A DNA stretch of 64,000 bases. Source: Shewanella sp. MTB7 (GTDB lineage: Bacteria; Pseudomonadota; Gammaproteobacteria; Enterobacterales; Shewanellaceae). Each line of letters starts with the position of its first letter. Position 1 is the first letter of the stretch. Where the stretch lies: assembly GCF_027571385.1 (NCBI RefSeq), contig NZ_CP085636.1, forward strand, positions 1,178,001-1,242,000. Reading direction: 5' to 3'. The notes beneath the pieces were generated by a model. It was not told where the DNA came from. It ran no database searches and saw nothing but the letters and a program-made list of their open reading frames with translations. Positions 9,350-23,561 of the stretch are shown here, piece after piece. The translations under genes were made by a program, and so were the position numbers.

Positions 9350-12300
9350 TTAACTGTGCTTGTTTTTCATCACGGCATAGTACAAAACAGGGATCACCAC
9401 TAAGGTGAGCAGTGTCGAGATTAAGATGCCGAAGATTAAGCTGATGGCTAGGCCGTTAAAGATAGGATCATCGATAATAAATAGCGCGCCAATCATGGCG
9501 GCGAGTGCCGTCAATATAATGGGTTTTGCCCGCACGGCGCCCGAGTGGATCACCGCTTGTTCAAAAGGTACACCGGCGGCGGTCTCTTTATTGATGAAGT
9601 CCACCAAGAGTATTGAGTTTCGCACTATGATCCCGGCAAGGGCAATCATGCCAATCATCGAGGGTGCGGTGAAGTTAGCTCCGAGTAGGGCATGACCCGG
9701 CATAATACCGATAACCGTCAGTGGAATCGGTGCCATGATGATCAGCGGCACAGTGTAAGATCTAAATTGTCCAACCACCAAGAGATAGATGGCTATCATT
9801 CCGATGGCGTAGGCGATGCCCATATCTCTAAAGGTTTCATAGGTGATCTTCCATTCCCCATCCCACAGAACAGCCACGGTATCGAGTCCGTTTGGTTGAT
9901 TGATATAATGCTGCTCGAAGCCGAGTCCCCCCGCTTTATCTATATTGGCTGCCATATCAAACATGCCGTACAACGGACTGTCGATTTCCCCTGTCATATC
10001 TGCAACCACCATGATCATTGGGATCATATTTTTGTGGATGATAGGGGCATCGATAACCCCCTTATTGATCGTGACCAGCTCAGAAATTGGTACGCGACTG
10101 CCATCCTTAGCGGTGAGCTTTAGGTTGAGTACCTGATCGAGATCGACCTTGGCTGATTCTTTCAGCTGCAAGCGGATCGGGATCGGATTTTTTTGGTTTT
10201 TATCATGCAGGTAGCTTAGGTCTTTACCACCTACCGAAGTGGCAATAAGATCGACAATATTTTGATAGGGTACGCCCAACAGGCTCGCTCGACTTCTGTC
10301 TATGATCACCTGCCATTTCTGTTGTGCGGCAGGGAGGAAAATATCGACATCGACGACACCATGAGTCTGCTTGAACAAGGTTTGTAGCTCATTGGCTGCG
10401 CGCTCACGAATCGCTTCGTTGGGGCCATAAACCTCAGCAACAATGGGCGACCAGACCGGTGGCCCTGGTGGTACTTCAACAATCTTAATATTGGCGTTGT
10501 AACGCTTACCTATCTCTTGCAGTGGCCCGCGAACCGATTGAGCGATGGTATTGCTGTCGCGTTCACGATCGCCTTTATCCCGTAGATTGACTTGAATATC
10601 GCCAAGCTCCTGGCTTTCCCTAAGGAAGTAGTGCCTGACTAAGCCGTTGAAGTTCATCGGCGCATTGGTGCCAGCATAGAGTTGGTAGTTTTCAACTTCA
10701 TCGACAGTGGCAAGATAGCGGCCAAGATCTTGCAATACTCTCTGTGTCTGCTCAACTGGGGTACCTTCTGGCATGTCGACCATCACCTGAAACTCAGATT
10801 TATTATCCAGAGGCAACATTTTGAGAATAACCAGCTGACCGATTGGCAGTGCAACGGCGATGCCGATTAACACAAAGATACCAGCTGCGAGTCCGACTCT
10901 GGCTTTTCTGGCTTGTTCTCCGAGCACAAATGGGCCGATGAGGTGGGTAAATAACCTGAACATCACGCCTTTTTTCTCTATGGTGTTTTCAGGATCGAGT
11001 TCAGTATCTGCTTTATCTAGGTTTGAGGCCGTCGGTTTGTGTTTGAGCAACTTACGGCTAAGCCATGGGGTGATGGTGAAGGCGATAGCCAAGGATATCA
11101 ACATGCCCATGCTGGCATTGATTGGAATTGGCGCCATGTAGGGACCCATGAGTCCAGACACAAAAGCCATGGGTAGCAGGGCGGCGATAACGGTAAAAGT
11201 CGCCAGAATGGTAGGGCTTCCCACTTCATCAACGGCGGCAGGGATAAGCTCAGTCAGGCTCTTTTCCCCCATGGCCATATGTCGATGAATGTTCTCTACC
11301 ACCACGATGGCGTCATCGACCAAAATACCGATAGAGAAGATAAGTGCAAACAGTGATATTCGGTTTAGGGTGAAACCCCACGCCCATGAGGCAAATAGGG
11401 TGATGGCCAAGGTGATAATGATGGCGGCACCAACGACCATCGCTTCTCTCGCTCCCATTGTTAGCAGGACTAAAATCACCACAGCAACAGTCGCAAACAT
11501 GAGTTTAAAGATGAGGGTATTGGCTTTGTCACCAGCGGTTTCACCATAATTTCTTGATATGCTGACCTCCACATTGTCGGGGATAAGGAGGTTTTTAACC
11601 CTGTCGACTCGGGTTAAGATCTGCTCTGCCACTGCCACCGCATTTTCGCCAGCTTGTTTACCTATCGCCAAGGTGACCGCAGGGTACATTCCCTGTTTGT
11701 CGCCATGCCAGGCGCTTTTTACCGGAATATCGGCTTTGAGTGATAGCTCGGCGATATCATTGAGATAAACCGGAACACTCTGGCCATCGCTGTCACTGTA
11801 AACAGAGAGTACTAGCTGCTTAACGTCATCTATATTCTGTAGAAATTGACCCGCCTGAACCTTTATCTCCTGATTGCCTTGAATCAATGAGCTGGGTATT
11901 GAGATCTGGTTATTTGCTGACAAAGATTGGCTGATCGCATCGAAACTTAAGCCGTAATAGTTCATTTTAACGGGGTCTATACGAACATTCAGTACCAGCT
12001 CATGAGCGCCAACAGCGTAGATTTCACGGGTGCCGGGAATGCGCTTGAGCTCAGTCTCTAAACCATGGGCGACATGGGTCAGATCCTCTGCCGATACATG
12101 GGGATCTTTAGACCACAAAGTCAGGCTGACAATCGGCACATCATCTATGACTCTTGGCTTGATAAGGGGCTCGCCAACACCTGAACCCGTAGGAAGCCTG
12201 TCCATATTGGAATAGATCTGGTTGTAGAGTTTCACGATGGCTTCGCTGCGTGGAATACCCACTTCGAATATGGCGATAATCAGCGCGCCATCGGGTTGAG

Positions 12301-12610
12301 AGAAGGAGTATAAGGTATCAATTCCTTTAATCTCAGAGATGATCTGCTCTGCAGGCAAGGTGACTAGGCTTTCAACCTCGGCAGGACTAGCGCCAGGAAA
12401 AGGAATGAAGACATCGGCAAAGGTTACATCGATCTGCGGCTCCTCCTCTTTTGGGGTGACTAGCACAGCAAATAGACCGAGTAACAGTCCGAGAATCGCT
12501 AGCAAAGGGGTGATAGCACTGAGCTGAAATGCAGCGGCTATCTTGCCAGAGATGCCTAGCTTGCTCCTATTCGAAGCATCGCCAGATTTAGATGGTTCTT
12601 GACTGCTCAT
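9350..12610 (-). CDS. RND-family efflux transporter, inner-membrane pump subunit
   Basis: 1086-residue proton-driven AcrB/MexB-type pump. Twelve hydrophobic segments in two halves, each half with a large periplasmic loop. A first helix lies at about residues 30-51. The proton-relay Asp pair of TM4 is in GILVDDAIVVVEN (about residue 435). The second half contains AIGMIAIYLLVVGQF and MIGMIALAGIIVRNSILLVD. The start ATG follows AAAGGA, 11 bp after the adaptor gene. No outer-membrane channel gene accompanies the pair, so a TolC-type protein encoded elsewhere is presumably used. The association with rhodanese and DUF2892 suggests a role with sulfur or redox compounds, but the substrate cannot be read from sequence. 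Confidence 0.93.
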   Translation of the reverse strand: MSSQEPSKSGDASNRSKLGISGKIAAAFQLSAITPLLAILGLLLGLFAVLVTPKEEEPQIDVTFADVFIPFPGASPAEVESLVTLPAEQIISEIKGIDTLYSFSQPDGALIIAIFEVGIPRSEAIVKLYNQIYSNMDRLPTGSGVGEPLIKPRVIDDVPIVSLTLWSKDPHVSAEDLTHVAHGLETELKRIPGTREIYAVGAHELVLNVRIDPVKMNYYGLSFDAISQSLSANNQISIPSSLIQGNQEIKVQAGQFLQNIDDVKQLVLSVYSDSDGQSVPVYLNDIAELSLKADIPVKSAWHGDKQGMYPAVTLAIGKQAGENAVAVAEQILTRVDRVKNLLIPDNVEVSISRNYGETAGDKANTLIFKLMFATVAVVILVLLTMGAREAMVVGAAIIITLAITLFASWAWGFTLNRISLFALIFSIGILVDDAIVVVENIHRHMAMGEKSLTELIPAAVDEVGSPTILATFTVIAALLPMAFVSGLMGPYMAPIPINASMGMLISLAIAFTITPWLSRKLLKHKPTASNLDKADTELDPENTIEKKGVMFRLFTHLIGPFVLGEQARKARVGLAAGIFVLIGIAVALPIGQLVILKMLPLDNKSEFQVMVDMPEGTPVEQTQRVLQDLGRYLATVDEVENYQLYAGTNAPMNFNGLVRHYFLRESQELGDIQVNLRDKGDRERDSNTIAQSVRGPLQEIGKRYNANIKIVEVPPGPPVWSPIVAEVYGPNEAIRERAANELQTLFKQTHGVVDVDIFLPAAQQKWQVIIDRSRASLLGVPYQNIVDLIATSVGGKDLSYLHDKNQKNPIPIRLQLKESAKVDLDQVLNLKLTAKDGSRVPISELVTINKGVIDAPIIHKNMIPMIMVVADMTGEIDSPLYGMFDMAANIDKAGGLGFEQHYINQPNGLDTVAVLWDGEWKITYETFRDMGIAYAIGMIAIYLLVVGQFRSYTVPLIIMAPIPLTVIGIMPGHALLGANFTAPSMIGMIALAGIIVRNSILLVDFINKETAAGVPFEQAVIHSGAVRAKPIILTALAAMIGALFIIDDPIFNGLAISLIFGILISTLLTLVVIPVLYYAVMKNKHS

Positions 12611-12621
12611 ACTTTATTCCT

Positions 12622-13707
12622 TTACCTACTTGGCTGACTGACAACTTGCTTATCGAGAAGCACTTGGTATGCGTCAAGCGCCACAATGTCGCCTTCATCT
12701 AGGCCGGACAATATCTCGACAGTGTCATGTTCAGTTCTGCCGATCCGCACTTGATTAAGCACGAAGCGATCACCGAGTTGTCGATACACCGCTGTGAGTT
12801 CGCCGCGTTCAATCAGGGTTGACTTAGGCAGGGTGATATTGCGGGTAACACCAGCACTGAATTTGGCCTTAGCCCACATACCCGGCATAAGGTTTGCTTC
12901 ATCTTCGGGCAGCAAAATCCGCACTTTATAGCTGTGACTTTGGGGATCGGCGAAAGAGAAGATAGTTAACTTATCCGATTGAAAGCGGCGTCCATCGTTG
13001 AGGGATATTTCAAATTTAGGTTGTTGTTTCAAGGCGTCAATGTAACGTTGAGGCACTTGAGTTACGGCGCGCATCTGGTCTAACGAAAAGCCTGATAGCA
13101 GCGCTTGGCCTGGGCTGACGGTTTCGCCCTCTTCAACATATCTGTGGGTGACAATCCCTGAAAATGGTGCTGCAACTGAGGTGTAGGTGAGTGATTCGTT
13201 GGCGCGGATAAGGTTTGCGTTAGCCGCGGATACTGCTTGCTCAGCTGACTTTGCCTGAGCTGTGGCTTCATCCATATTCCCCTGAGATATTGCCCCTTGT
13301 GGGAATAAGGCTGAATAACGTTGTCTGGTGAGTTGAGCTTGAGTGTTATGGGCTACTGATCTGGCAAGTTCAGCCTCGGCAGCGGCCAGTGTCGCCCCTT
13401 GTTCCTTACTGGTGATCTCCAGCAGAGGTGCTCCCTGAGGCACGATATCATTGACATCATAGTTAAGTGATAACACGCGCCCTGAAGTTTGTGCTGATAC
13501 CGTAGCTGCCTTAACGGCTTCGAGTTTGGCATCGAGTTCAATCCAACGAATGTGATCACTTAACGACACCTTAATCGTTTCTGTCTTTGTATCTGCAGCA
13601 TGTAAAGAGAAACTCGTTAGCAGCATTAAGCTGATGAATGCTAAATAGCAATGGCGACGATAACAACTCGTTGAGCTAGTCATGGTGAAATCCAATAAAT
13701 AATCCAT
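12622..13707 (-). CDS. RND efflux periplasmic adaptor (membrane fusion protein)
   Basis: Periplasmic adaptor that links the adjacent RND pump to an outer-membrane channel. An N-terminal signal segment (CYLAFISLMLLTSFSLHAAD) is followed by the biotinyl-lipoyl half AATVSAQTSGRVLSLNYDVN, a helical hairpin rich in Ala, Gln and Glu (about residues 110-175), the second lipoyl half TSVAAPFSGIVTHRYVEEGE and beta-barrel domains ending in VEILSGLDEGDIVALD. The start is ambiguous: ATG at 13707 (361 residues) or ATG at 13683 (353 residues), which removes an unusual leader before the signal peptide; neither has a strong ribosome site. First gene of the minus-strand pump operon. Confidence 0.9.
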   Translation of the reverse strand: MDYLLDFTMTSSTSCYRRHCYLAFISLMLLTSFSLHAADTKTETIKVSLSDHIRWIELDAKLEAVKAATVSAQTSGRVLSLNYDVNDIVPQGAPLLEITSKEQGATLAAAEAELARSVAHNTQAQLTRQRYSALFPQGAISQGNMDEATAQAKSAEQAVSAANANLIRANESLTYTSVAAPFSGIVTHRYVEEGETVSPGQALLSGFSLDQMRAVTQVPQRYIDALKQQPKFEISLNDGRRFQSDKLTIFSFADPQSHSYKVRILLPEDEANLMPGMWAKAKFSAGVTRNITLPKSTLIERGELTAVYRQLGDRFVLNQVRIGRTEHDTVEILSGLDEGDIVALDAYQVLLDKQVVSQPSR

Positions 13708-13880
13708 AAGGAAATTCTAATGGACTTAGTGCCAACTTGTAAAGCATTCATTAGAAAAATACGATGAACTGTATGAAATAGTCATTTTAGTCGTGTTTTA
13801 TGCTCCTGCTAGTGATGTTTTATGTTTCATCTTCAACATGTTCTCTTTAAGAGTGAGCGGCTGTCTTATTGAGGAATAGA

Positions 13881-13955
13881 GCGGACACTTTTTGTTATTT
13901 CAGTCATTAACCGGACACTTTACCTGTGTGTCCGCGGACACTTTTATCTGTCCGC
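13881..13955 (+). promoter_or_regulatory. candidate upstream activator sites (GCGGACA repeats) for the sigma-54 promoter
   Basis: Four related motifs occur in 75 bp: GCGGACACTT at 13881, CCGGACACTT at 13911, the perfect 14-bp palindrome GTGTCCGCGGACAC at 13928-13941, and TGTCCGC (reverse orientation) at 13949. They lie 50-125 bp upstream of the GG/GT promoter at 14004. This is where enhancer sites of NtrC-type activators usually sit. The natural candidate binder is the regulator encoded at 19222-20670 in the same operon. Binding is an inference. Confidence 0.65.
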
Positions 13956-14003
13956 TATTATCGGGTTTCAATTAAGGTATTGAATTTTAGCAGTTTAATT
14001 TTA

Positions 14004-14019
14004 TGGCATGCAACTTGTA
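14004..14019 (+). promoter_or_regulatory. sigma-54 (-24/-12) promoter
   Basis: TGGCATGCAACTTGTA fits the sigma-54 consensus TGGCACG-N4-TTGCA: GG at 14005-14006 and GT (for GC) at 14017-14018 with the required ten-base spacing. Transcription would begin near 14030, upstream of the adaptor start at 14089. This excludes the earlier in-frame ATG at 14008, which lies inside the promoter. Confidence 0.72.
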
Positions 14020-14088
14020 ATACTCACTGTAATTAGATGTGCTGGACACTTATCGGCGCTCATAAAGATGATAGCTAGGAACAGAATT

Positions 14089-15351
14089 ATGATTATGGAT
14101 ACGAGCGGACAGGACACTGTGGTGCAGCCAAGTATGGGCAAGAAGTTTAAGTGGCCTTTGGTAGCTGGTGCTGCTGTGCTGCTCATCTCGGGTTTGGTTT
14201 GGTCAAGTGTCGGTGGCAGTCAAGTGAGTGAGTCTATCAAACGTAGTGAATTGAGATTTGCTACTTTAGCGCAAGGTACCCTCACTCGAGATATCGCCAC
14301 CATAGGTAAAATTGTCGCGGCCAATGCGCCAATCCTTTATAGCACCGACCAAGGCACTGTGACGTTACTGGCAAAGCCTGGCGACCGAGTTGAACTGGGT
14401 GATGTGGTGGCCACCATCGAAAGTCACAAACTCACTAACAGCCTTAAGCAGCAAGAAGCCTTGTTAGAGGGGATGCAAAGTTCACTGGAACGTGCCCGTC
14501 TCGATGCCCGCCGCGAACAACTAAAAGCGCAACAAACACTGGATATGGCCAAGGTTGATCTGGCTGCTGCCGACAGAGAGAGTCGCCGTGGTGATGAGCT
14601 AATTCAAAATAAACTGATCTCAAAAATTGATTTCGAGAAGGGTAAGGATGATCTGTATAAAGCTAAATTATTGTCCGCCCATGCATTGCAAGAAGCTGAC
14701 TTGATGCGCGATACCTTAACGTTTGAGGTCAAGAACAAAGTCTCTGAGGTTAATCGTCAGAAGCTGGTGGTCAGTGAGCTTGAGCGTCAGGTGGCAGCGT
14801 TAAACATTAAAGCGCCAGTGGGCGGCATTATCGGTAACTGGTTAACAGAGCAAAAAGCCCGTATCGGCCAGAGCCAACCTATATTAACCGTGGTCGATTT
14901 AAGCGCCTTTGAAGCTGAACTCGCTGTGCCAGAGTCTTATGCCGATGAGTTGGGACTGGGCATGGATGTTGAGTTGAGCTTCGGTTCTTTGACCCTGATA
15001 GGGCAACTGTCATCAATTTCACCTGAGGTGAGAAACCGCGAAGTGACTGCTCGTGTCAGATTTGATCAAGACCAAGGTTTACACCTTAGGCAGAACCAGC
15101 GTCTATCGGCACGGGTATTATTGGAAAACAGATCTAACGTCTTGATGGTTAAACGTGGTGCATTTGTTTCCACCGGTGGTGGTCAAGAGGTGTATGCCAT
15201 GAATGGTGACATTGCCGAGCAGACGAACATTCAATTAGGTGCCCGCAGCATGAGCCATATCGAAGTGCTCCAAGGAGGTAAGGTTGGTGATGTGTGGGTG
15301 ATATCAAGTATTCAGGACTTCAACAAAGCGCAGCAAGTACTGGTTCGCTAA
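14089..15351 (+). CDS. HlyD/MacA-like periplasmic adaptor of an ABC export system
   Basis: 420-residue membrane fusion protein. The ATG at 14089 is chosen because AGGA sits eight bases upstream and it lies downstream of the sigma-54 promoter. A short cytoplasmic N-terminus with KKFKWPLVAGAAVLLISGLVW as a single membrane anchor is followed by a lipoyl half (TVTLLAKPGDRVELGDVVATI), a long coiled-coil hairpin (about residues 120-240), the second lipoyl half (NIKAPVGGIIGNW) and a beta-barrel region. Genes for an ATPase and two FtsX-type permeases follow, so it probably bridges those permeases to an outer-membrane channel as in MacAB-TolC. The exported substrate is unknown. Confidence 0.85.
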   Translation: MIMDTSGQDTVVQPSMGKKFKWPLVAGAAVLLISGLVWSSVGGSQVSESIKRSELRFATLAQGTLTRDIATIGKIVAANAPILYSTDQGTVTLLAKPGDRVELGDVVATIESHKLTNSLKQQEALLEGMQSSLERARLDARREQLKAQQTLDMAKVDLAAADRESRRGDELIQNKLISKIDFEKGKDDLYKAKLLSAHALQEADLMRDTLTFEVKNKVSEVNRQKLVVSELERQVAALNIKAPVGGIIGNWLTEQKARIGQSQPILTVVDLSAFEAELAVPESYADELGLGMDVELSFGSLTLIGQLSSISPEVRNREVTARVRFDQDQGLHLRQNQRLSARVLLENRSNVLMVKRGAFVSTGGGQEVYAMNGDIAEQTNIQLGARSMSHIEVLQGGKVGDVWVISSIQDFNKAQQVLVR

Positions 15352-15361
15352 GGAGAACATG

Positions 15362-15676
15362 ATGAATAGAGTAGAGCAAAATATGAGTGAGGAAATTAGT
15401 GGCCAGAAAGTCTTTAACGCAATGAAAGCCCTTAGCCTACAAAAGGCCATCACGGTTACAGCCCTTTTGCTATTGATCATAGCGGTGCAGGTGTCGACTC
15501 AAAGTGCCGCTGACTGGTTTGTATTTGGTTTAAATGTATTAGAAGTCACGGCTCCGTTCCATGTGTCTGTCAACGAAACATCTAATGTCAGTGCGGGCTT
15601 TGTTAGCGGTTTACATCACTTAAGCGAAATGGTTTGGACATCGGCGACAGCACTAATTGAGTTCATCTTTCGCTAA
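15362..15676 (+). CDS. small single-pass membrane protein of unknown function in the export operon
   Basis: About 104 residues and not recognised. It starts 10 bp after the adaptor stop. AAGGAG at 15350-15355 is best placed for the ATG at 15362, though one at 15359 and a third at 15383 are possible. A polar N-terminus of about 30 residues precedes one clear hydrophobic helix (AITVTALLLLIIAVQV). A mostly uncharged C-terminal part follows (ADWFVFGLNVLEVTAPFHV and a Ser/Thr-rich stretch), probably periplasmic. Its place between adaptor and ATPase suggests an accessory subunit of the exporter or an immunity or sensing component; this is inference only. Confidence 0.65.
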   Translation: MNRVEQNMSEEISGQKVFNAMKALSLQKAITVTALLLLIIAVQVSTQSAADWFVFGLNVLEVTAPFHVSVNETSNVSAGFVSGLHHLSEMVWTSATALIEFIFR

Positions 15677-15720
15677 ACCTGTGGTTGCCTAACCAAAATT
15701 TAAGATTGCAGGTAATGAAT

Positions 15721-15736
15721 TAGAACCTAGAACCTA
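15721..15736. repeat. short AACCTAG repeat
   Basis: TAGAACCTAGAACCTAG lies in the 103-bp gap between the small membrane protein and the ATPase gene. The same unit occurs three times at 6885-6904, with related CCTAGG-rich strings at 39870 and 56050. It breaks the otherwise tight spacing of the operon. Confidence 0.4.
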
Positions 15737-15779
15737 GCTTCTGGAAATGAATTAAACGATACAAACAGGGAATAATAAA

Positions 15780-16550
15780 ATGTTATCGATGAAGAATATC
15801 AGCAAAGTATTTAAAACCGATCTAGTCGAGACCCATGCGCTGCGTGATTTTAATTTAGAGGTTAATGAAGGTGAATTTGTGGCGGTAACAGGGCCTTCAG
15901 GCTCAGGCAAAACTACCTTCCTCAATATCGCAGGCTTGTTAGAAGGCTTTACTCATGGTGATTACTTTCTCGATGGAGTGAATATCTCTAACTTGAGCGA
16001 TAACAAAAGCGCGACCATTCGAAATGAAAAGATAGGATTTATCTTTCAGGGGTTTAACTTAATTCCCGATCTTAATTTGGCCGAGAATGTTGAAGTGCCA
16101 CTGCGTTACCGTGGCTTTAATGCGGCGGAGCGTAAACGTCGTGTGCAACATGCTTTAGAGCAGGTAGGGCTGGCTGCACGAATGAAGCATCTGCCATCAC
16201 AACTTTCTGGTGGTCAGCAGCAGAGAGTGGCGATTGCTCGTGCTTTGGCTGGTGAGCCAAGATTTCTACTGGCCGATGAGCCAACCGGTAATTTAGACAG
16301 CATGATGGCGCGTCAGGTGATGGAGCTGCTTGAAGAGATCAACAGGGCGGGAACCACCATTATTATGGTGACTCATGATGCGGAGCTGGCCCGTCGCGCT
16401 CAACGTAATATTCAGATTGTCGATGGCCAAGTATGTGATTTCACCATGTATCAAGACGGCGCTAAAGCGGACAAACCGCACTTAGTTGCCGATGACGATA
16501 ACAATCGTGAAGCGTCATCACAGATTGAAACTGAACAAGCGGCAAGCTAA
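15780..16550 (+). CDS. ABC transporter ATPase, MacB/LolD type
   Basis: 256-residue nucleotide-binding subunit of the exporter. Walker A GPSGSGKT (residues 38-45), Q-loop GFIFQGFNLIPDL, signature LSGGQQQRVAIARALAG, Walker B RFLLADEPTGNLDS and H-loop IMVTHDAEL are all intact. This arrangement is typical of the type-VII (mechanotransmission) ABC ATPases that pair with FtsX-fold permeases. A C-terminal tail of about 30 polar residues follows the domain. ATG start preceded by AGGGAAT; the permease gene begins 12 bp after the stop. Confidence 0.94.
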   Translation: MLSMKNISKVFKTDLVETHALRDFNLEVNEGEFVAVTGPSGSGKTTFLNIAGLLEGFTHGDYFLDGVNISNLSDNKSATIRNEKIGFIFQGFNLIPDLNLAENVEVPLRYRGFNAAERKRRVQHALEQVGLAARMKHLPSQLSGGQQQRVAIARALAGEPRFLLADEPTGNLDSMMARQVMELLEEINRAGTTIIMVTHDAELARRAQRNIQIVDGQVCDFTMYQDGAKADKPHLVADDDNNREASSQIETEQAAS

Positions 16551-16561
16551 GGGGATAATCT

Positions 16562-17863
16562 ATGTTTTTCTATTATCTAGATCTGGCTTGGCGCAGCATC
16601 AAAAAAACGCCATTTTTGTCACTCTTGATGGTGTTAGCTATCTCAATCGGCATAGGTATTACCATTACTACCTTGAATGTGTATCAGCTAATGTCAGAAA
16701 ACCCAGCGGGTGATCGCTCCGATAAACTCATGGCAGTGCAGCTTTGGAGCCAAGGTAAAGATGCGTGGAAAGAGTTTAATGCTCAAGTGACTTACCAAGA
16801 TGCTTATAATCTGCGTAAAAGTGATGTTCCAGTGCGTCAAACTGCGATGTTTGTTACTGGGCTAGCACTGCAGACCGAGGACCCTGACTTTGTGCCTTTG
16901 TTAGAGTCTGTTCGAGTGACCGATAGTGACTTCTTCGATATGTTTTCGGTGCCATTTCTTTATGGTAAAGCCTGGGATAAGGGCGTCGATACTGAAGCCG
17001 CGTATCAAGTGGTGATCAATGAAGCGCTGAATAAGCAGTTATTCTCGGGCGAAGACAGTATAGGGAAAACGCTTTATTTGGATAGCAAACCCTATCAAAT
17101 TGTCGGTGTCACTAAGATCTGGAATCCAAGCCCTATCTACTATGATTTGACCACCGGAGGATTTAAGGATTCTACGCAACTTTTTGTGCCCTTTTCGCTA
17201 GCGCCTTTAGAGGAGTATCAGAGCTGGGGTAATAATCAAAGCTGGAAAAGAGAGTCGATGAATAACTACAGCCAACGCTTAAGTTCAGAGATGCATTGGG
17301 TACAGTTTTGGGCTGAAGTTAAAGATGATAAACAGCGTGATGAATATGCTCAATGGTTACAACGCTATGTGGAGCAACAACAGCTTTTAGGGCGCTTTGA
17401 GAGCCCCGAAGCCGCAGCGCAGCTTTCAAATGTAGAGCAGTGGCTGGCGCTCAATGAAGTGGTGCCTGAAGACAATAAGATCTTGGTTGGTCTCAGTGTG
17501 CTTTTTCTTGTCGTTTGTTTGGTTAACATGTTAGGACTGCTACTGGCTAAGTTCCTTAAGCGCGCACCTGAAGTGGGCGTACGCCGCGCAATTGGTGCCA
17601 GCCGTTCTCAGATATTTTCGCAACATATGGTTGAGGTAGGCTTGATTGGTTTCGGTGGTGGTTTACTGGGACTGTTATGGGCTTGGGGATCACTGTCTAT
17701 GTTGTCTGCTCACTTTGATTTGGAAGACTCACTAACCCAACTGGATCTGATGATGTGGGTATTAGCACCGAGTATCGCTATTTTAGCGGCGTTAATTGCA
17801 GGGGTGTATCCAGCGTGGCGGATATGTTCTACCAATCCTAGCGTTCATCTGAAGAGTCAGTAG
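16562..17863 (+). CDS. FtsX/MacB-type ABC permease, first of two
   Basis: 433 residues. An N-terminal membrane helix (FLSLLMVLAISIGIGITI, about residues 19-36) is followed by a large periplasmic MacB-like core domain (about 45-310), then three helices with the FtsX motif KRAPEVGVRRAIGASRSQIF and a C-terminal PAWRICSTNP. This is the topology of type-VII ABC exporters, which move substrates already in the periplasm rather than across the inner membrane. The ATG follows AAGGGGAT. It probably heterodimerises with the permease at 17876. Confidence 0.9.
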   Translation: MFFYYLDLAWRSIKKTPFLSLLMVLAISIGIGITITTLNVYQLMSENPAGDRSDKLMAVQLWSQGKDAWKEFNAQVTYQDAYNLRKSDVPVRQTAMFVTGLALQTEDPDFVPLLESVRVTDSDFFDMFSVPFLYGKAWDKGVDTEAAYQVVINEALNKQLFSGEDSIGKTLYLDSKPYQIVGVTKIWNPSPIYYDLTTGGFKDSTQLFVPFSLAPLEEYQSWGNNQSWKRESMNNYSQRLSSEMHWVQFWAEVKDDKQRDEYAQWLQRYVEQQQLLGRFESPEAAAQLSNVEQWLALNEVVPEDNKILVGLSVLFLVVCLVNMLGLLLAKFLKRAPEVGVRRAIGASRSQIFSQHMVEVGLIGFGGGLLGLLWAWGSLSMLSAHFDLEDSLTQLDLMMWVLAPSIAILAALIAGVYPAWRICSTNPSVHLKSQ

Positions 17864-17875
17864 AAGGAGTTCATT

Positions 17876-19087
17876 ATGTTACAGATTAAACCTATTTTGA
17901 GTACGTTAATGCGTAATAAGAGTGGTCCGATCCTGCTGCTTATTCAGATCATTCTCTCGGTCGCGATAGTGGCCAATGCCAGTTTCATCATCAGTGAACG
18001 TATCGCCTTGATGGACCGAGATTCTGGCACAGCCGAAGAGCAGGTATTTGATTTTCGTCTTTACAGCTTCGATACCAATATCGATCTAGAGTCTCAAATT
18101 CAGCGCGATATCCGAGCCGTTCGCGACCTGCCAGGTGTTATTGATGCTTCAACAACCAGTATGGTGCCCTTGAGTGGCGGTGGTTGGTCATCGGGTTATA
18201 CGGTAGGCAGCAGCAAGGAAACCGCCAAAGATACTGAGAATGCTGCCATCTACTATGGCGACGAACATATGCTCAATAGCCTAGGAGTGGAGCTGATAGA
18301 GGGGCGCAACTTTTATGAAGAGGAGATCCTGACTGGCAGTCCAGACTTGGCGACCCATGGCATCGTATCAAAAGCGTTTGCTAAAGCGAGTTGGGGCGAT
18401 GAGCCTGCGATTGGACAGATCATGTATGCCGGGGATTTTGGTGACATGCCAATCAAGATCATCGGTGTGGTTGATAAGCTACAAGGTGCGTGGGTTAACA
18501 GTTCATATCTCGATAACAGTGTCATCTTAAACATAAGACTGGTTAATGTGTTTACTAAGGTATTGGTGCGCGCTGAGGTCGGTACCTTAGCTCAACTAAA
18601 GGAGGCTATTCCAGCGGCGCTGCATAAAGATAACCGTAATCGAGTTATTGAAGGTTTTACGCTGATCAGTGAACATAGGAAGCGTGTTTATCGTAACCAC
18701 GAATTGATGGCAACGGTACTGTCGATGATGGTGGTTTTACTCTTACTTATCACTTCATTAGGTTTGGCTGGTATGGTGATGTTCAATATCGAACGTCGGA
18801 CTAAACAAATAGGTACTCGCCGTGCATTGGGCGCTAAAAAACGTGACATTATCAGCTTCTTCTTAGTTGAGAACTATATCATTTGTCTGGCGGGCGGTGT
18901 GATTGGTGGTCTAGTGGCAATCCAATTAGGTCAACAGTTGATGACGGTTTATAGCCTACCTAAACTTGAGCTTATCTATCCGATAGCGACGATTATTGGC
19001 TTGTTATTACTCACAACTGTTGCCGTGATCTTACCTGCCCGTAAAGCGGCAAAGATCTCTCCGGCTATCGCAACAAGAAGTGTTTAA
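17876..19087 (+). CDS. FtsX/MacB-type ABC permease, second of two
   Basis: 403 residues, same topology as the preceding permease: N-terminal helix (ILLLIQIILSVAIVANASFI), periplasmic domain (about residues 45-275), then three helices with RRTKQIGTRRALGAKKRDII and a C-terminal PARKAAKISPAIA. It starts 12 bp after the first permease with GAAGGAGTT upstream. Two non-identical permeases sharing one ATPase suggest a heterodimeric complex. About 135 bp separate it from the regulator gene. Confidence 0.9.
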   Translation: MLQIKPILSTLMRNKSGPILLLIQIILSVAIVANASFIISERIALMDRDSGTAEEQVFDFRLYSFDTNIDLESQIQRDIRAVRDLPGVIDASTTSMVPLSGGGWSSGYTVGSSKETAKDTENAAIYYGDEHMLNSLGVELIEGRNFYEEEILTGSPDLATHGIVSKAFAKASWGDEPAIGQIMYAGDFGDMPIKIIGVVDKLQGAWVNSSYLDNSVILNIRLVNVFTKVLVRAEVGTLAQLKEAIPAALHKDNRNRVIEGFTLISEHRKRVYRNHELMATVLSMMVVLLLLITSLGLAGMVMFNIERRTKQIGTRRALGAKKRDIISFFLVENYIICLAGGVIGGLVAIQLGQQLMTVYSLPKLELIYPIATIIGLLLLTTVAVILPARKAAKISPAIATRSV

Positions 19088-19221
19088 TCATAAGGAACAG
19101 ACCTAAATGTAACATGTTGGGTTATAAGCCTAAGCGGATTAATCTTTAATTCTCTTAGGTTTTCAGTTAGTTTTAACACTATTTCCGCACACTTTTTACA
19201 GTATAAGAATAATAAATAAGT

Positions 19222-20670
19222 ATGGATACAATCCTCATTGTCGACGATAACCAAGCTGTGTGTAACGCATTGGCGCTGATGTTAGAGCTTAACGGCTTTA
19301 ATACGCTCACGTGTCTATCCCCTGAAGTTGCGTTGGAGCTAATCTCACTACATGAGGTATCTCTGGTGGTGCAGGATATGAATTTTACTCAAGACACGAC
19401 ATCGGGCGAGGAGGGCAAGACCCTGTTTTATGCACTCAGAGAGATTCAACCTCTGTTGCCGATTGTACTGTTAACCGCGTGGACCCAGCTTGAGATAGCC
19501 GTTGAGTTAGTCAAAGAGGGCGCGGCAGATTACATGGGTAAGCCATGGGATGATACTAAGTTAATCACCAGCATTAACAATTTGATCTCCATCTACACGT
19601 TATCGAAAGCCAATACCCAACTAGCAAGAGTGGATAATGATCGCATGTCGGTCATCAAAGGGGCGGATTTGTGTGGCATCGTCTTTGGTAGTGGTGCTAT
19701 GCAGCGCTGTGTGGACTTGGCTTTGCAGATCGCCCGTTCCGATGTGTCCGTGTTGATAACCGGCCCCAACGGCGCCGGCAAAGATAAACTGGCGGACATT
19801 ATCCATGCTAACTCCTCACTCAAGAATAAACCTTTTATTAAGGTGAATGTGGGCGCATTGCCTATGGATTTGTTGGAAGCTGAGCTGTTTGGCGCCGAAG
19901 CGGGGGCGTTTACCGGGGCAAATAAAACCCGTATAGGTCGATTTGAGGCGGCCGATGGCGGCTCCCTGTTTTTGGATGAGATAGGTAATCTCCCTTTGTC
20001 TGGCCAAGTAAAGCTGTTGCGTGTACTGCAAACCGGTGAGTTTGAACGACTGGGCAGCCACCAAACCCGCAAGGTCAATGTTCGGGTATTAAGTGCCACC
20101 AATGCCGACCTTGCCGAAGCTATCCGGGAGGGGCGTTTTAGGGAAGATCTCTTCTATCGCCTTAATGTTATCGAGCTTGAGCTGGTACCGCTTAATCAAA
20201 GACAAGATGATATCTTTCCTTTGATAGATCTCTTTATCGGCAAAGACTTTACCCTTAACAAGCAAGCTCAGCAGGCTTTGATGGCTCATGGTTGGCCGGG
20301 TAATGTCAGGGAGTTAGAAAATGCCTGTAAACGTGCGGTTATCTTAGCCACAACAAGTGTATTAACCCCTGCAGATTTTGGGTTGAGTTTAGCCATCTCT
20401 GTTGATTTACCTCAAGTTGCTGGTGGTAGAACCCGCAGTGTGGATGAACAAGTCGCTTGCGCTCAACCCTATGTTGATCAGCCTAAACCTGTTGATGCAA
20501 GCCATACCGATAGACAACACCTTGCATCAAACAGGGTTGAGTTAGATAAAGGGAATATAGAAGCGGCGATAGCAGAACATGGTGGTGTGATTGCCAGAGT
20601 GGCCAAGTCTTTAGGCTTAAGTCGGCAAGCCCTGTATCGCCGTATGGAAAAATTTGGTATCGATAAATGA
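19222..20670 (+). CDS. NtrC-family sigma-54-dependent response regulator
   Basis: 482 residues in three domains. The receiver (about 1-120) has acidic residues Asp8-Asp9, phospho-acceptor Asp52 in VVQDMNF, and the switch residues in LLTAW and GKPW. The AAA+ domain (about 150-385) has Walker A TGPNGAGKD, the sigma-54 contact GAFTGA loop at about residue 230, GGSLFLDEIGNL and the second-region arginines in RLNVIELELVPLNQR. A Fis-type helix-turn-helix is at the C-terminus (ARVAKSLGLSRQALYRRM). A poorly conserved linker (about 395-440) precedes it. It probably activates the promoter at 14004; a CCGCACACTTTTT string at 19185 resembles those upstream sites. Cognate kinase is the overlapping next gene. 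Confidence 0.95.
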   Translation: MDTILIVDDNQAVCNALALMLELNGFNTLTCLSPEVALELISLHEVSLVVQDMNFTQDTTSGEEGKTLFYALREIQPLLPIVLLTAWTQLEIAVELVKEGAADYMGKPWDDTKLITSINNLISIYTLSKANTQLARVDNDRMSVIKGADLCGIVFGSGAMQRCVDLALQIARSDVSVLITGPNGAGKDKLADIIHANSSLKNKPFIKVNVGALPMDLLEAELFGAEAGAFTGANKTRIGRFEAADGGSLFLDEIGNLPLSGQVKLLRVLQTGEFERLGSHQTRKVNVRVLSATNADLAEAIREGRFREDLFYRLNVIELELVPLNQRQDDIFPLIDLFIGKDFTLNKQAQQALMAHGWPGNVRELENACKRAVILATTSVLTPADFGLSLAISVDLPQVAGGRTRSVDEQVACAQPYVDQPKPVDASHTDRQHLASNRVELDKGNIEAAIAEHGGVIARVAKSLGLSRQALYRRMEKFGIDK

Positions 20671-22091
20671 TGACGCCGTTTATGAGGTTCTTTATTACTT
20701 TAGCATCCCACTTTTCCCTACGCGCTAAGCTGATCATGGGCGCCGTTTTAGCCTCTCAAATTGGCACCGGATTGTCTCTGTTATTCGTGATGGAGCTTAT
20801 TCAGCCACAAACCTTTATTGCCACATCGACGTTTGTTTTTGTCATAATTTTTATGCTTGCAGCTCTCTGTGCTGCCGTTATCACACACTTTATCACCCGC
20901 ACTCTTGCGAATAGTCTCAATGCACTTGAGGTGGGTTTGCTTAACTTTAAAGACCACGATTTTAGTGTCACGATCCCTGTCTGTGGCGATCGCCAGTTAC
21001 GGTCGCTAACGACGCTGTTTAATGAATCCGCCGAAACCTTAAGGCGGGAGCGTCAGTATATCTATCAACGCGAGTTGCTGCTCGATAAGGTCATACAAAG
21101 CTCGTCTAATGTGATGTTGTTGCTCGATGATAAACAGAGAGTCATTTACGCTAACGATGCCGCCCGACATCTGTTTAATCAAGGCCATCATATTGAGGGT
21201 TTTGCACTGCCAGACTTAATAAAGCAAGTCAGTGCTGAACTGTCTGCTGCCCTTAATAAACCTAAAGATGGCCTGTTTACTCTCTCTGTGGAGGGACAAG
21301 ATGAGGATGATACTTGGCACCTGTCTCGTGGCCAATTTATGTTAAATGGTCAGTATCATCATCTGTTACTGCTTAAACAGATGACCCATGAACTTAACCG
21401 TCAAGAGGTCGCGGTGTGGAAAAAAGTGATACGTATTATTAGCCATGAGCTGAATAACTCAGTGGCCCCCATCGCCTCTATGGTGAACTCTGGGCGCATG
21501 CTTACTCAAGATTTAAATGATCCTAAGCTTAAGATGATCTTTGATACTATTGAAGATAGAAGCCGTCATTTAAGTCTGTTTATCTCCAACTACGCTCGCT
21601 TTGCTAAACTGCCTCAACCTAAAAAAGACCAAGTAAACTGGCGTAAACTTGTGGACCAACTCGGTCAGCATTATCAGTTTACGCTTGTTGGAGAACTGCC
21701 CGATGAAGATGGAGAATTTGATCTGATCCAGATGGAGCAAGTGCTATTGAACTTGCTTAAAAATGCTCATGAGTCGGGTTCTGAATCTAATGGGGTGACA
21801 TTAACCATCGAGCCCTCGAGTTTATTCGATGGGAGAAACACAGGTAAGGTTAGATCGTTAGATAACGAAGGAAAAGTGTACCAAGGCACCGTTATCGAAG
21901 TGAAAGATAGAGGGGCTGGTATGTCGGTCGATGTGCTTAAGCAAGCTTTACTGCCTTTTTACTCCACCAAGCAATCTGGCACAGGCCTTGGCTTACCCCT
22001 ATGTAGAGAGATTATCGAGGCCCACGATGGCAGAATTAGTCTACATAATCGCGATAGCGGCGGGCTGTGTGTCAGGGTCTTTTTACCTTAA
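20667..22091 (+). CDS. membrane sensor histidine kinase (NtrY/NtrB-like)
   Basis: 474 residues. Two N-terminal membrane helices (about 22-44 and 50-75) enclose almost no periplasmic loop. A HAMP-like segment, a PAS-like domain (about 145-245, VMLLLDDKQRVIYANDAARH), a phospho-acceptor His in IISHELNNSVAPI (about residue 260) and an HATPase domain follow, the last with LLNLLKNAHES, VKDRGAGM and GTGLGLPLCREI. The ATG overlaps the regulator stop (ATGA), implying translational coupling. The near-absence of a periplasmic sensor domain suggests it detects a membrane or intramembrane signal, as is common for cell-envelope stress or antimicrobial-peptide sensors. Confidence 0.94.
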   Translation: MMTPFMRFFITLASHFSLRAKLIMGAVLASQIGTGLSLLFVMELIQPQTFIATSTFVFVIIFMLAALCAAVITHFITRTLANSLNALEVGLLNFKDHDFSVTIPVCGDRQLRSLTTLFNESAETLRRERQYIYQRELLLDKVIQSSSNVMLLLDDKQRVIYANDAARHLFNQGHHIEGFALPDLIKQVSAELSAALNKPKDGLFTLSVEGQDEDDTWHLSRGQFMLNGQYHHLLLLKQMTHELNRQEVAVWKKVIRIISHELNNSVAPIASMVNSGRMLTQDLNDPKLKMIFDTIEDRSRHLSLFISNYARFAKLPQPKKDQVNWRKLVDQLGQHYQFTLVGELPDEDGEFDLIQMEQVLLNLLKNAHESGSESNGVTLTIEPSSLFDGRNTGKVRSLDNEGKVYQGTVIEVKDRGAGMSVDVLKQALLPFYSTKQSGTGLGLPLCREIIEAHDGRISLHNRDSGGLCVRVFLP

Positions 22092-23081: not shown

Positions 23082-23129
23082 TTTATGTCATGCTTTAAAG
23101 TTAATCCTTCTTTTGATAGAGAGATTGAG

Positions 23130-23561
23130 ATGAGTAAACCTATCCAACAAAACATCGGAAGTGTCGCTTTAGTTGTTGAAAATTATGATGATGAAATTGA
23201 GTTTTACACTAATAAATTACAATTTGAGCTTATCGAAGACTTAGACTTAGACTTAGACTTAGACTTAGATTTAGGTGAAGGTAAACGTTGGGTTTTAATC
23301 GCTCCGCCAAATTCTACCGGGACTGATCTACTGTTGGCCCAAGCGAGTAACGAAGAGCAGAAACTCTCTATAGGTAATCAAGCCGGTGGCCGTGTTTTTC
23401 TTTTCTTGCACACTAACGATTTTTGGCGCGATTACGAAAACATGAAAAGTAAAGGCGTTGAGTTCACTGAAGAGCCTAGCACTGAAGGGTATGGCATGGT
23501 TGTCGTTTTTAAAGACTTGTATGGCACTAAATGGGATCTGCTGCAGTTAACGAGATCATAA
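23130..23561 (+). CDS. VOC-superfamily (glyoxalase-like) protein with an Asp-Leu microsatellite
   Basis: About 143 residues from the ATG at 23130 (AGAGAG upstream); a longer frame from 23085 adds 15 residues without family similarity. NIGSVALVVENYDDEIEFYTNKL opens the first beta-alpha-beta-beta-beta module and VVFKDLYGTKWDLLQL closes the second, typical of the vicinal-oxygen-chelate fold. Residues about 44-55 are six Asp-Leu pairs encoded by five GACTTA hexamers plus one GATTTA (23238-23273), placed just before GEGKRWVLIAPP. The number of units is probably variable by strand slippage without loss of frame. Confidence 0.85.
   Translation: MSKPIQQNIGSVALVVENYDDEIEFYTNKLQFELIEDLDLDLDLDLDLGEGKRWVLIAPPNSTGTDLLLAQASNEEQKLSIGNQAGGRVFLFLHTNDFWRDYENMKSKGVEFTEEPSTEGYGMVVVFKDLYGTKWDLLQLTRS
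23238..23273 (+). repeat. in-frame hexanucleotide microsatellite (GACTTA)5 GATTTA
   Basis: Six consecutive hexamers encode (Asp-Leu)6 in the loop between the first and second strands of the VOC domain. A six-base unit changes length in whole codons, so gain or loss would lengthen or shorten a surface loop and leave the frame intact. Confidence 0.95.

Follow-up and report, generated by a model that had tools for sequence, protein, structure and literature searches.

The locus described here raises the question of whether a MacB-type exporter can stand under a sigma-54 switch encoded beside it, and of how exclusively that switch would serve the exporter. It lies in a 64,000-nucleotide stretch (the window) of Shewanella sp. 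MTB7, contig NZ_CP085636.1, positions 1,178,001 to 1,242,000, from a genome of 6.37 Mb in one contig, and comprises a periplasmic adaptor (A), a small membrane protein (B), an ATP-binding cassette (ABC) ATPase (C), two permeases (D and E), an NtrC-type regulator (F) and a sensor kinase (G) (Table 1). Comparison with relatives makes it quite probable that the module is a dedicated, autoregulated tripartite exporter with a sigma-54 promoter, an array of CGGACA sites and an F-G switch. The coordinates and gene list of an initial annotation of the window proved correct on re-reading, and its description of a self-contained type VII exporter module, equipped with an NtrC-type regulator and a kinase of its own, was supported.

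Five CGGACA half-sites were located upstream of A, at 13882, 13912 and 13935 on the plus strand and at 13929 and 13949 on the minus strand, two of which form the perfect palindrome GTGTCCGCGGACAC at 13928-13941. Four GCGGACA-type sites with this palindrome had been annotated; the palindrome stands, and the half-sites number five. Over the whole window, CGGACA showed no enrichment (19 occurrences vs 18.8 expected), and the unusual feature of the sites is their local clustering, 5 of the 19 within 73 bases, together with their conservation. Downstream of the array, TGGCATGCAACTTGTA matches the sigma-54 consensus at 9 of 11 positions; the promoter element annotated at 14004-14019 is present, albeit as GG-N10-GT instead of GG-N10-GC. 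Because the bare -24/-12 pattern gave 15 matches in the whole genome against 6 for the reversed control, it is weak evidence alone, and conservation carries the case.

A scan of a genome collection returned 537 relatives of F, and the best 80 loci were compared. The order A-C-D-E-F-G was the same in 76 of them, the four others (L035, L097, L102 and L109) being contigs of 5.4-9.9 kb that end within the module; named sources of module loci include Shewanella, Paraferrimonas, Simiduia, Pseudoalteromonas, Thalassotalea and Bowmanella. Upstream regions were compared for the window, 75 of the 80 loci and 16 later loci, 92 in all, with a promoter search that required GG at -24 and left G at -12 free. 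G at -12 was nevertheless present in all 92, and T occupied the final place (GG-N10-GT) in 39. The promoter scored at least 8/11 in 91 regions and at least 9/11 in 66, levels reached by 17% and 2.6% of shuffles, respectively, with three picks (L095, L100 and L138) lying too far upstream in this unrestricted search. When the search was limited to 210 bp upstream, 90 of the 92 scored at least 8, and at least two CGGACA sites preceded the promoter in 90 (88 in the first pass; 0.8% of shuffles). The check proposed in the initial annotation, conservation of the GCGGACA-type motif and the -24/-12 promoter before orthologous operons, was thereby passed, with the repeats and the element recurring in Shewanella, Pseudoalteromonas, Thalassotalea and more distant Gammaproteobacteria. 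Same-strand spacings between CGGACA sites (n=180) fell at 18-24 bp in 148 cases and at 30-33 bp in 20, close to two or three helix turns, as would be expected if the activators lined up along the same side of the double helix.

A few regions run counter to this pattern. In the Simiduia locus L095 the genes are conserved, but no CGGACA site lies in the 400 bp upstream and the promoter is unconvincing, scoring 8 at a doubtful place; the upstream region of L137 contains one CGGACA site; and L100 and L138 offer poor promoter matches, 7/11 at a plausible place. Since gene order, CGGACA repeats and the -24/-12 element are conserved in the comparison, sigma-54 control of the operon is very likely on these sequence grounds. 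In addition, an extra CGGACA or TGTCCG was seen downstream of the -24 element in 44 of the 92 loci, most commonly some 26 bp beyond the predicted start of transcription (14106-14111 in the window, within the adaptor gene), where it could provide negative feedback.

The distribution of the module was followed in a family sample of 146 genomes, drawn evenly from a larger group, and a class-wide sample of 369. An F orthologue was detected in 122 of the 146 family genomes (E at most 1e-117), the copy in G103 being split by a stop, and 24 were without F. Class-wide, nine genomes besides the window's own matched F at the cut-off of 1e-85 or better. The closest named F orthologues are from Shewanella, that of S. 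hanedai being 89% identical. Further stretches were obtained around the nine class-wide places and around 21 in the family. L115-L119 and L121 outside the family and L135-L144 inside it retain A, C, D, E, F and G. In L120, D to G are visible, E and F standing nearly 6 kb apart, and the stretch ends before A and C; L122 and L123 fall into a second exporter group, described below.

How far the regulator reaches was approached by pattern scans of 142 of the family genomes. The 16-mer operator TGTCCGCGGACACTTT was found in 60 of them, at a single place per genome (in G005 as overlapping matches on the two strands), and all 60 places lie 4963-5822 bp upstream of F; the reversed control occurred 0 times, and the operator was absent from all 24 family genomes without F. 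In the window genome, the paired pattern CGGACA-N11-20-CGGACA appeared only at the module locus; its reversed control occurred 7 times, so that the point is the absence elsewhere rather than the presence at the locus. Considering the strict operator and the confinement of the paired sites to the module locus, F appears to be a regulator specific to its own locus and operon. The shorter 12-mer TGTCCGCGGACA gave a less clean picture that weighs against such specificity: it occurred in 95 of the 142 genomes, including one without F (G029, two places), had a second place in ten genomes with F, and in G004, G013, G018 and G025 had its sole place away from the F locus. Because the reversed control of TGTCCGCGGACA also occurred in 30 of the 142 genomes, most of these stray places may be chance, and F may also have further targets beyond its own operon.

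F scored above the Pfam cut-offs for PF00072, PF00158 and PF02954, which places it among NtrC-type regulators. The GAFTGA motif is present in the window's F and in 67 of the 80 relatives, the other 13 carrying GAYTG, and the receiver aspartate motif was found in 80/80. In G, two predicted transmembrane (TM) segments about 13 residues apart are followed by PAS, HisKA and HATPase domains, the HisKA match of 21.1 bits lying under the Pfam cut-off of 26.9. Counting the window's G, 81 kinases were compared: the H-box was present in 79, both exceptions being contig-truncated, and 72 have two predicted TM segments separated by no more than 26 residues. Two kinases (L033 and L054) probably fall under the hydropathy threshold for TM calls, and seven from the ANA-3/xiamenensis clade (L060, L061, L063, L066, L067, L079 and L080) are 551-564 amino acids (aa) long, about 100 residues more, with an insert of about 120-135 residues between the TM segments, as read in L060, L067 and L080. 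The nearly loopless kinase annotated at this locus thus holds for the window and most relatives, and fails for 7/81, one Shewanella clade with a large insert.

On the transport side, D and E scored above the Pfam cut-offs for MacB_PCD and FtsX, identifying by sequence a type VII (MacB-fold) exporter with a MacB-type ATPase. D matched solved MacB chains (best 5gko, E 9.5e-12), and A gave a weak match to the MacA structure 4dk0 (E 0.002). Since D aligns to positions 7-401 and E to positions 412-801 of the duplicated-permease model ADOP (TIGR03434), two successive halves, the pair would form a split ADOP heterodimer. Residues 167-178 of A contain the RLS motif, which at the tip of the adaptor hairpin is associated with TolC docking; among relatives it was found in only 59 of 76 adaptors, a mixed count that tells a little against a TolC-docked pump.

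The small protein B is the least widely kept part. A TM-bearing open reading frame (ORF) of 57-131 aa separates A from C in 59 of the 63 Shewanella and Paraferrimonas loci; in L074, L077 and L089 a 77 aa ORF lies just under the threshold, and L083 has no such ORF. It was absent between A and C from 13/13 more distant loci, of which 8 have a 29-57 aa TM-bearing ORF between promoter and A, a weak finding as similar short ORFs occur in some Shewanella leaders. These single-TM ORFs upstream of the adaptor were seen in Pseudoalteromonas and Bowmanella (L098, L104-L108, L110 and L111). The ratio of nonsynonymous to synonymous substitution rates (dN/dS) for B was 0.13-0.22 in four comparisons, the fifth being saturated, against 0.03-0.05 for A in five, indicating that B is under purifying selection, weaker than that on A. 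A database search with B returned 11 matches, the first being the window's own and the two with an organism name coming from Shewanella. AcrZ, suggested by a likeness seen by eye, was rejected as the identity of the small ORFs: three from Pseudoalteromonas and one Shewanella B gave no Pfam match at E 10, in a search whose filters drop weak matches.

Taken together, these parts suggest the following mechanism. A, a dimer of C and a D/E heterodimer would assemble into a MacB-type (type VII) mechanotransmission pump, whose probable task is to expel, through a TolC-like channel, an amphiphile that is periplasmic or embedded in the inner membrane. G, almost without a periplasmic part, would read a membrane- or exporter-borne signal and phosphorylate F; F would then bind the CGGACA repeats, whose palindrome precedes the -24 element by about 70 bp, and would use ATP hydrolysis to open the sigma-54 polymerase at 14004-14019. 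Activation would raise the exporter strongly, and autoactivation of F and G would follow through read-through past a hairpin that holds the regulator lower.

This hairpin bears on whether A to G form one transcription unit. The initial annotation described a single operon; with the hairpin at 19129-19159, there may be two partly uncoupled units. The E-F gap measures 54-384 bp in 78 of 79 loci and 934 in one. The hairpin scored 14.05 in the window against 13.75 for the 95th percentile of shuffled gaps, a value exceeded in 49 of 79 relatives, and the mean over 79 E-F gaps was 14.7 vs 7.7 in shuffles. The stem sequences vary between species, and the hairpin itself is often kept. By presence in a loose scan, 65 of 79 gaps had a hairpin vs 71% of shuffles, which tells against it, the scores alone being different. 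A partial terminator that keeps the regulator below exporter levels is possible. A step further, F and G could have a separate promoter in the E-F gap, leaving A-E as the sigma-54 unit. The T-rich tail of the hairpin before F, the gap lengths up to the nearly 6 kb of L120, and the basal supply of regulator that would be required before activation point in this direction; the sole sigma-70-like candidate there, at 19173-19202, matches 9/12, and sigma-70-like sites over the region number 14 vs 14.8 expected, the sigma-70 and terminator scans both giving matches at chance level. We give this arrangement somewhat less than an even chance.

The role of the pump and the nature of its signal admit other readings as well. 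The exporter may serve envelope housekeeping rather than drug defence, carrying out an endogenous lipid, lipoprotein or peptide whose build-up G senses. Such a role would suit the wide occurrence of F in the family, and C scores high with LolD and FtsE models too; these scores stay under the curated cut-offs (225 vs 307.75 for the LolD equivalog, which does not make the pump a LolCDE system), and since 24 of the 146 family genomes are without F, the module is dispensable. The flanks, compared in 76 loci over as many as three upstream and four downstream genes, contain no widely kept neighbour that could be a dedicated substrate or biosynthesis gene, as housekeeping would have it; the best-kept flanking family is found in 25 of the 76, and not at a constant position. 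Housekeeping is thus a possible but tentatively held account. A different proposal concerns the signal: G, unable to sense by itself, may read the conformation or flux of the D/E/C exporter, as in the Bce systems, with pump and kinase as one sensory complex and sigma-54 as its output. The short inter-TM loop in 72/81 kinases and the strict co-location of the kinase with a MacB-superfamily exporter fit this proposal, and according to the available text of PMC5985334, BceS needs BceB and active BceA for the bacitracin response. The resemblance is one of topology and co-location, one clade's kinases carry the large insert between the TM segments, and G has a PAS domain. BceS is not known to have such a domain. 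Bce-like sensing appears rather unlikely. The dedicated, autoregulated exporter, with F acting from the CGGACA array on its own sigma-54 promoter, remains the preferred reading.

Table 1. Features of the module and their positions in the window
Feature	Coordinates	Strand	Remarks
Five CGGACA half-sites, proposed enhancer (upstream activating sequence) of F	13882..13954	+	conserved repeats
-24/-12 sigma-54 promoter element TGGCATGCAACTTGTA, GG-N10-GT	14004..14019	+	predicted transcript start ~14030
A, periplasmic adaptor (MacA/HlyD type)	14089..15351	+	420 aa, N-terminal anchor, conserved cytosolic MI.DTS.QD start
B, small single-TM protein, no known family	15359..15676	+	105 aa
C, ABC ATPase, MacB/LolD/FtsE type	15780..16550	+	
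D, permease 1, MacB_PCD + FtsX	16562..17863	+	aligns to N-terminal half of ADOP model
E, permease 2, MacB_PCD + FtsX	17876..19087	+	aligns to C-terminal half of ADOP model
Hairpin with T-rich tail, proposed partial terminator/attenuator	19129..19159	+	between exporter and regulator genes
F, NtrC-type response regulator	19222..20670	+	receiver, AAA+ with GAFTGA, Fis-type helix-turn-helix
G, sensor histidine kinase	20667..22091	+	two TM, PAS, HisKA, HATPase; 4-base overlap with F

Read as its longest ORF, A would begin at 14008, within the promoter itself; because 74 of 76 relatives begin with MI.DTS.QD or nearly so, the start was placed at 14089 (MIMDTSGQD...), leaving a leader of about 59 nt after the predicted transcript start. 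The near-invariant peptide encoded at 14089-14115 opens the adaptors of the A type in the same 74/76 relatives and is unexpected for the cytosolic tail of a periplasmic adaptor; perhaps it is a contact for the ATPase or the small protein. A divergent resistance-nodulation-division (RND) pump (adaptor and permease) at 9350-13707 shares the intergenic region 13708-14088 with the module. It was ruled out as a module part, since among the 80 loci it accompanies the module in L033, L051 and L112 alone. A small protein encoded at 23085-23561 carries an LDLDLDLDLD run that resembles a short in-frame repeat expansion. At gathering thresholds, Rfam gave no match in the window.

The initial annotation had called the control of such an exporter by a linked sigma-54 activator uncommon, a view not supported by the frequency of F in the family, the presence of the module outside it and the existence of a second exporter group linked to an enhancer-binding protein. 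Within the window genome, 8 MacB_PCD and 19 sigma-54-activator places were counted, and both stand close together at the module locus alone. Among 13 fetched loci with a weaker F relative, ten (L122-L129, L132 and L133; 35-39% identical) have at least an exporter ATPase or permease nearby, and L130, L131 and L134 have neither nearby. The pairing of a sigma-54 regulator with a MacB-type exporter is not rare across genomes. The second group, in Shewanella and other Gammaproteobacteria, shares with the module an adaptor, an ATPase, a MacB/FtsX permease, an NtrC-type regulator and a kinase, in this order in L124 by Pfam, but its permease is fused (829 aa in L124; 809 aa in L133, confirmed with Pfam), its regulators are the 35-39% identical ones and B is not matched. 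No CGGACA repeats were found in three of its upstream regions (L123-L125). By eye, L124 and L125 have an element resembling -24/-12 and, upstream, repeats of a different kind (GTCCCA...TCGA type), which suggests that each regulator has its own operator.

PMC12316311 (2025) reports, from promoter predictions in gamma-Proteobacteria, Opitutia and Bacteroidia, an enrichment of sigma-54 control among COG0577 permeases, and calls this result the first evidence tying sigma-54 to the COG0577 family. The present module backs that general computational report on sigma-54 and FtsX/MacB exporters, and adds predicted operators and a named regulator pair. Within the open-licence literature, searched by title and abstract, no description of the module operon was found, and the available part of PMC3162934 makes no mention of ABC, exporter, MacB or permease. 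The module offers a concrete sigma-54 circuit that appears to have one target and belongs to a pump conserved in Shewanella and its relatives; its tightly activator-dependent type of promoter suits asking whether the transporter or a membrane signal is the driver, and searches for substrate and signal are made straightforward in laboratory Shewanella.

Among known systems, MacAB-TolC shares with the module an adaptor, a MacB_PCD/FtsX permease and a MacB-type ATPase. In the module, the ATPase is apart from the permease (the model for MacB proper, the fused ATPase-permease NF007826 of NCBIfam, gave 218, 51 and 54 against a cut-off of 966), two unlike permeases and an extra small TM protein are present, and a sigma-54 regulator and kinase of its own accompany the pump; MacAB in Salmonella and E. 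coli is controlled by PhoPQ, as stated in the available text of PMC5985334. The darobactin exporter DarBCD is also among the closest known systems, with DarD as the best NCBIfam match of C, DarC matching A and DarB matching E; all scores of the module stay below the equivalog cut-offs (DarC 78 of 450, DarD 268 of 375, DarB 44 of 700), and the DarB model is one long permease of 777 positions. The ADOP duplicated permeases correspond to D and E half by half, but are single proteins holding both halves, whereas the module splits them into two genes with scores of 157 and 175, where the cut-off is 622. BceAB-BceRS of Bacillota also pairs an exporter of the MacB superfamily with an adjacent kinase that has hardly any extracellular part, and differs in that the module combines a two-permease pump and adaptor with a PAS-bearing kinase and an NtrC-type regulator; Bce systems are not known to involve sigma-54. 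Extending this analogy, the split-permease pump, B and G might act as a single complex for sensing and transport, driving its own sigma-54 promoter by way of the locus-specific array, with the kinase insert of one clade as a second input, a rather improbable but distinctive possibility that would make the module a Gram-negative counterpart of the Bce systems.

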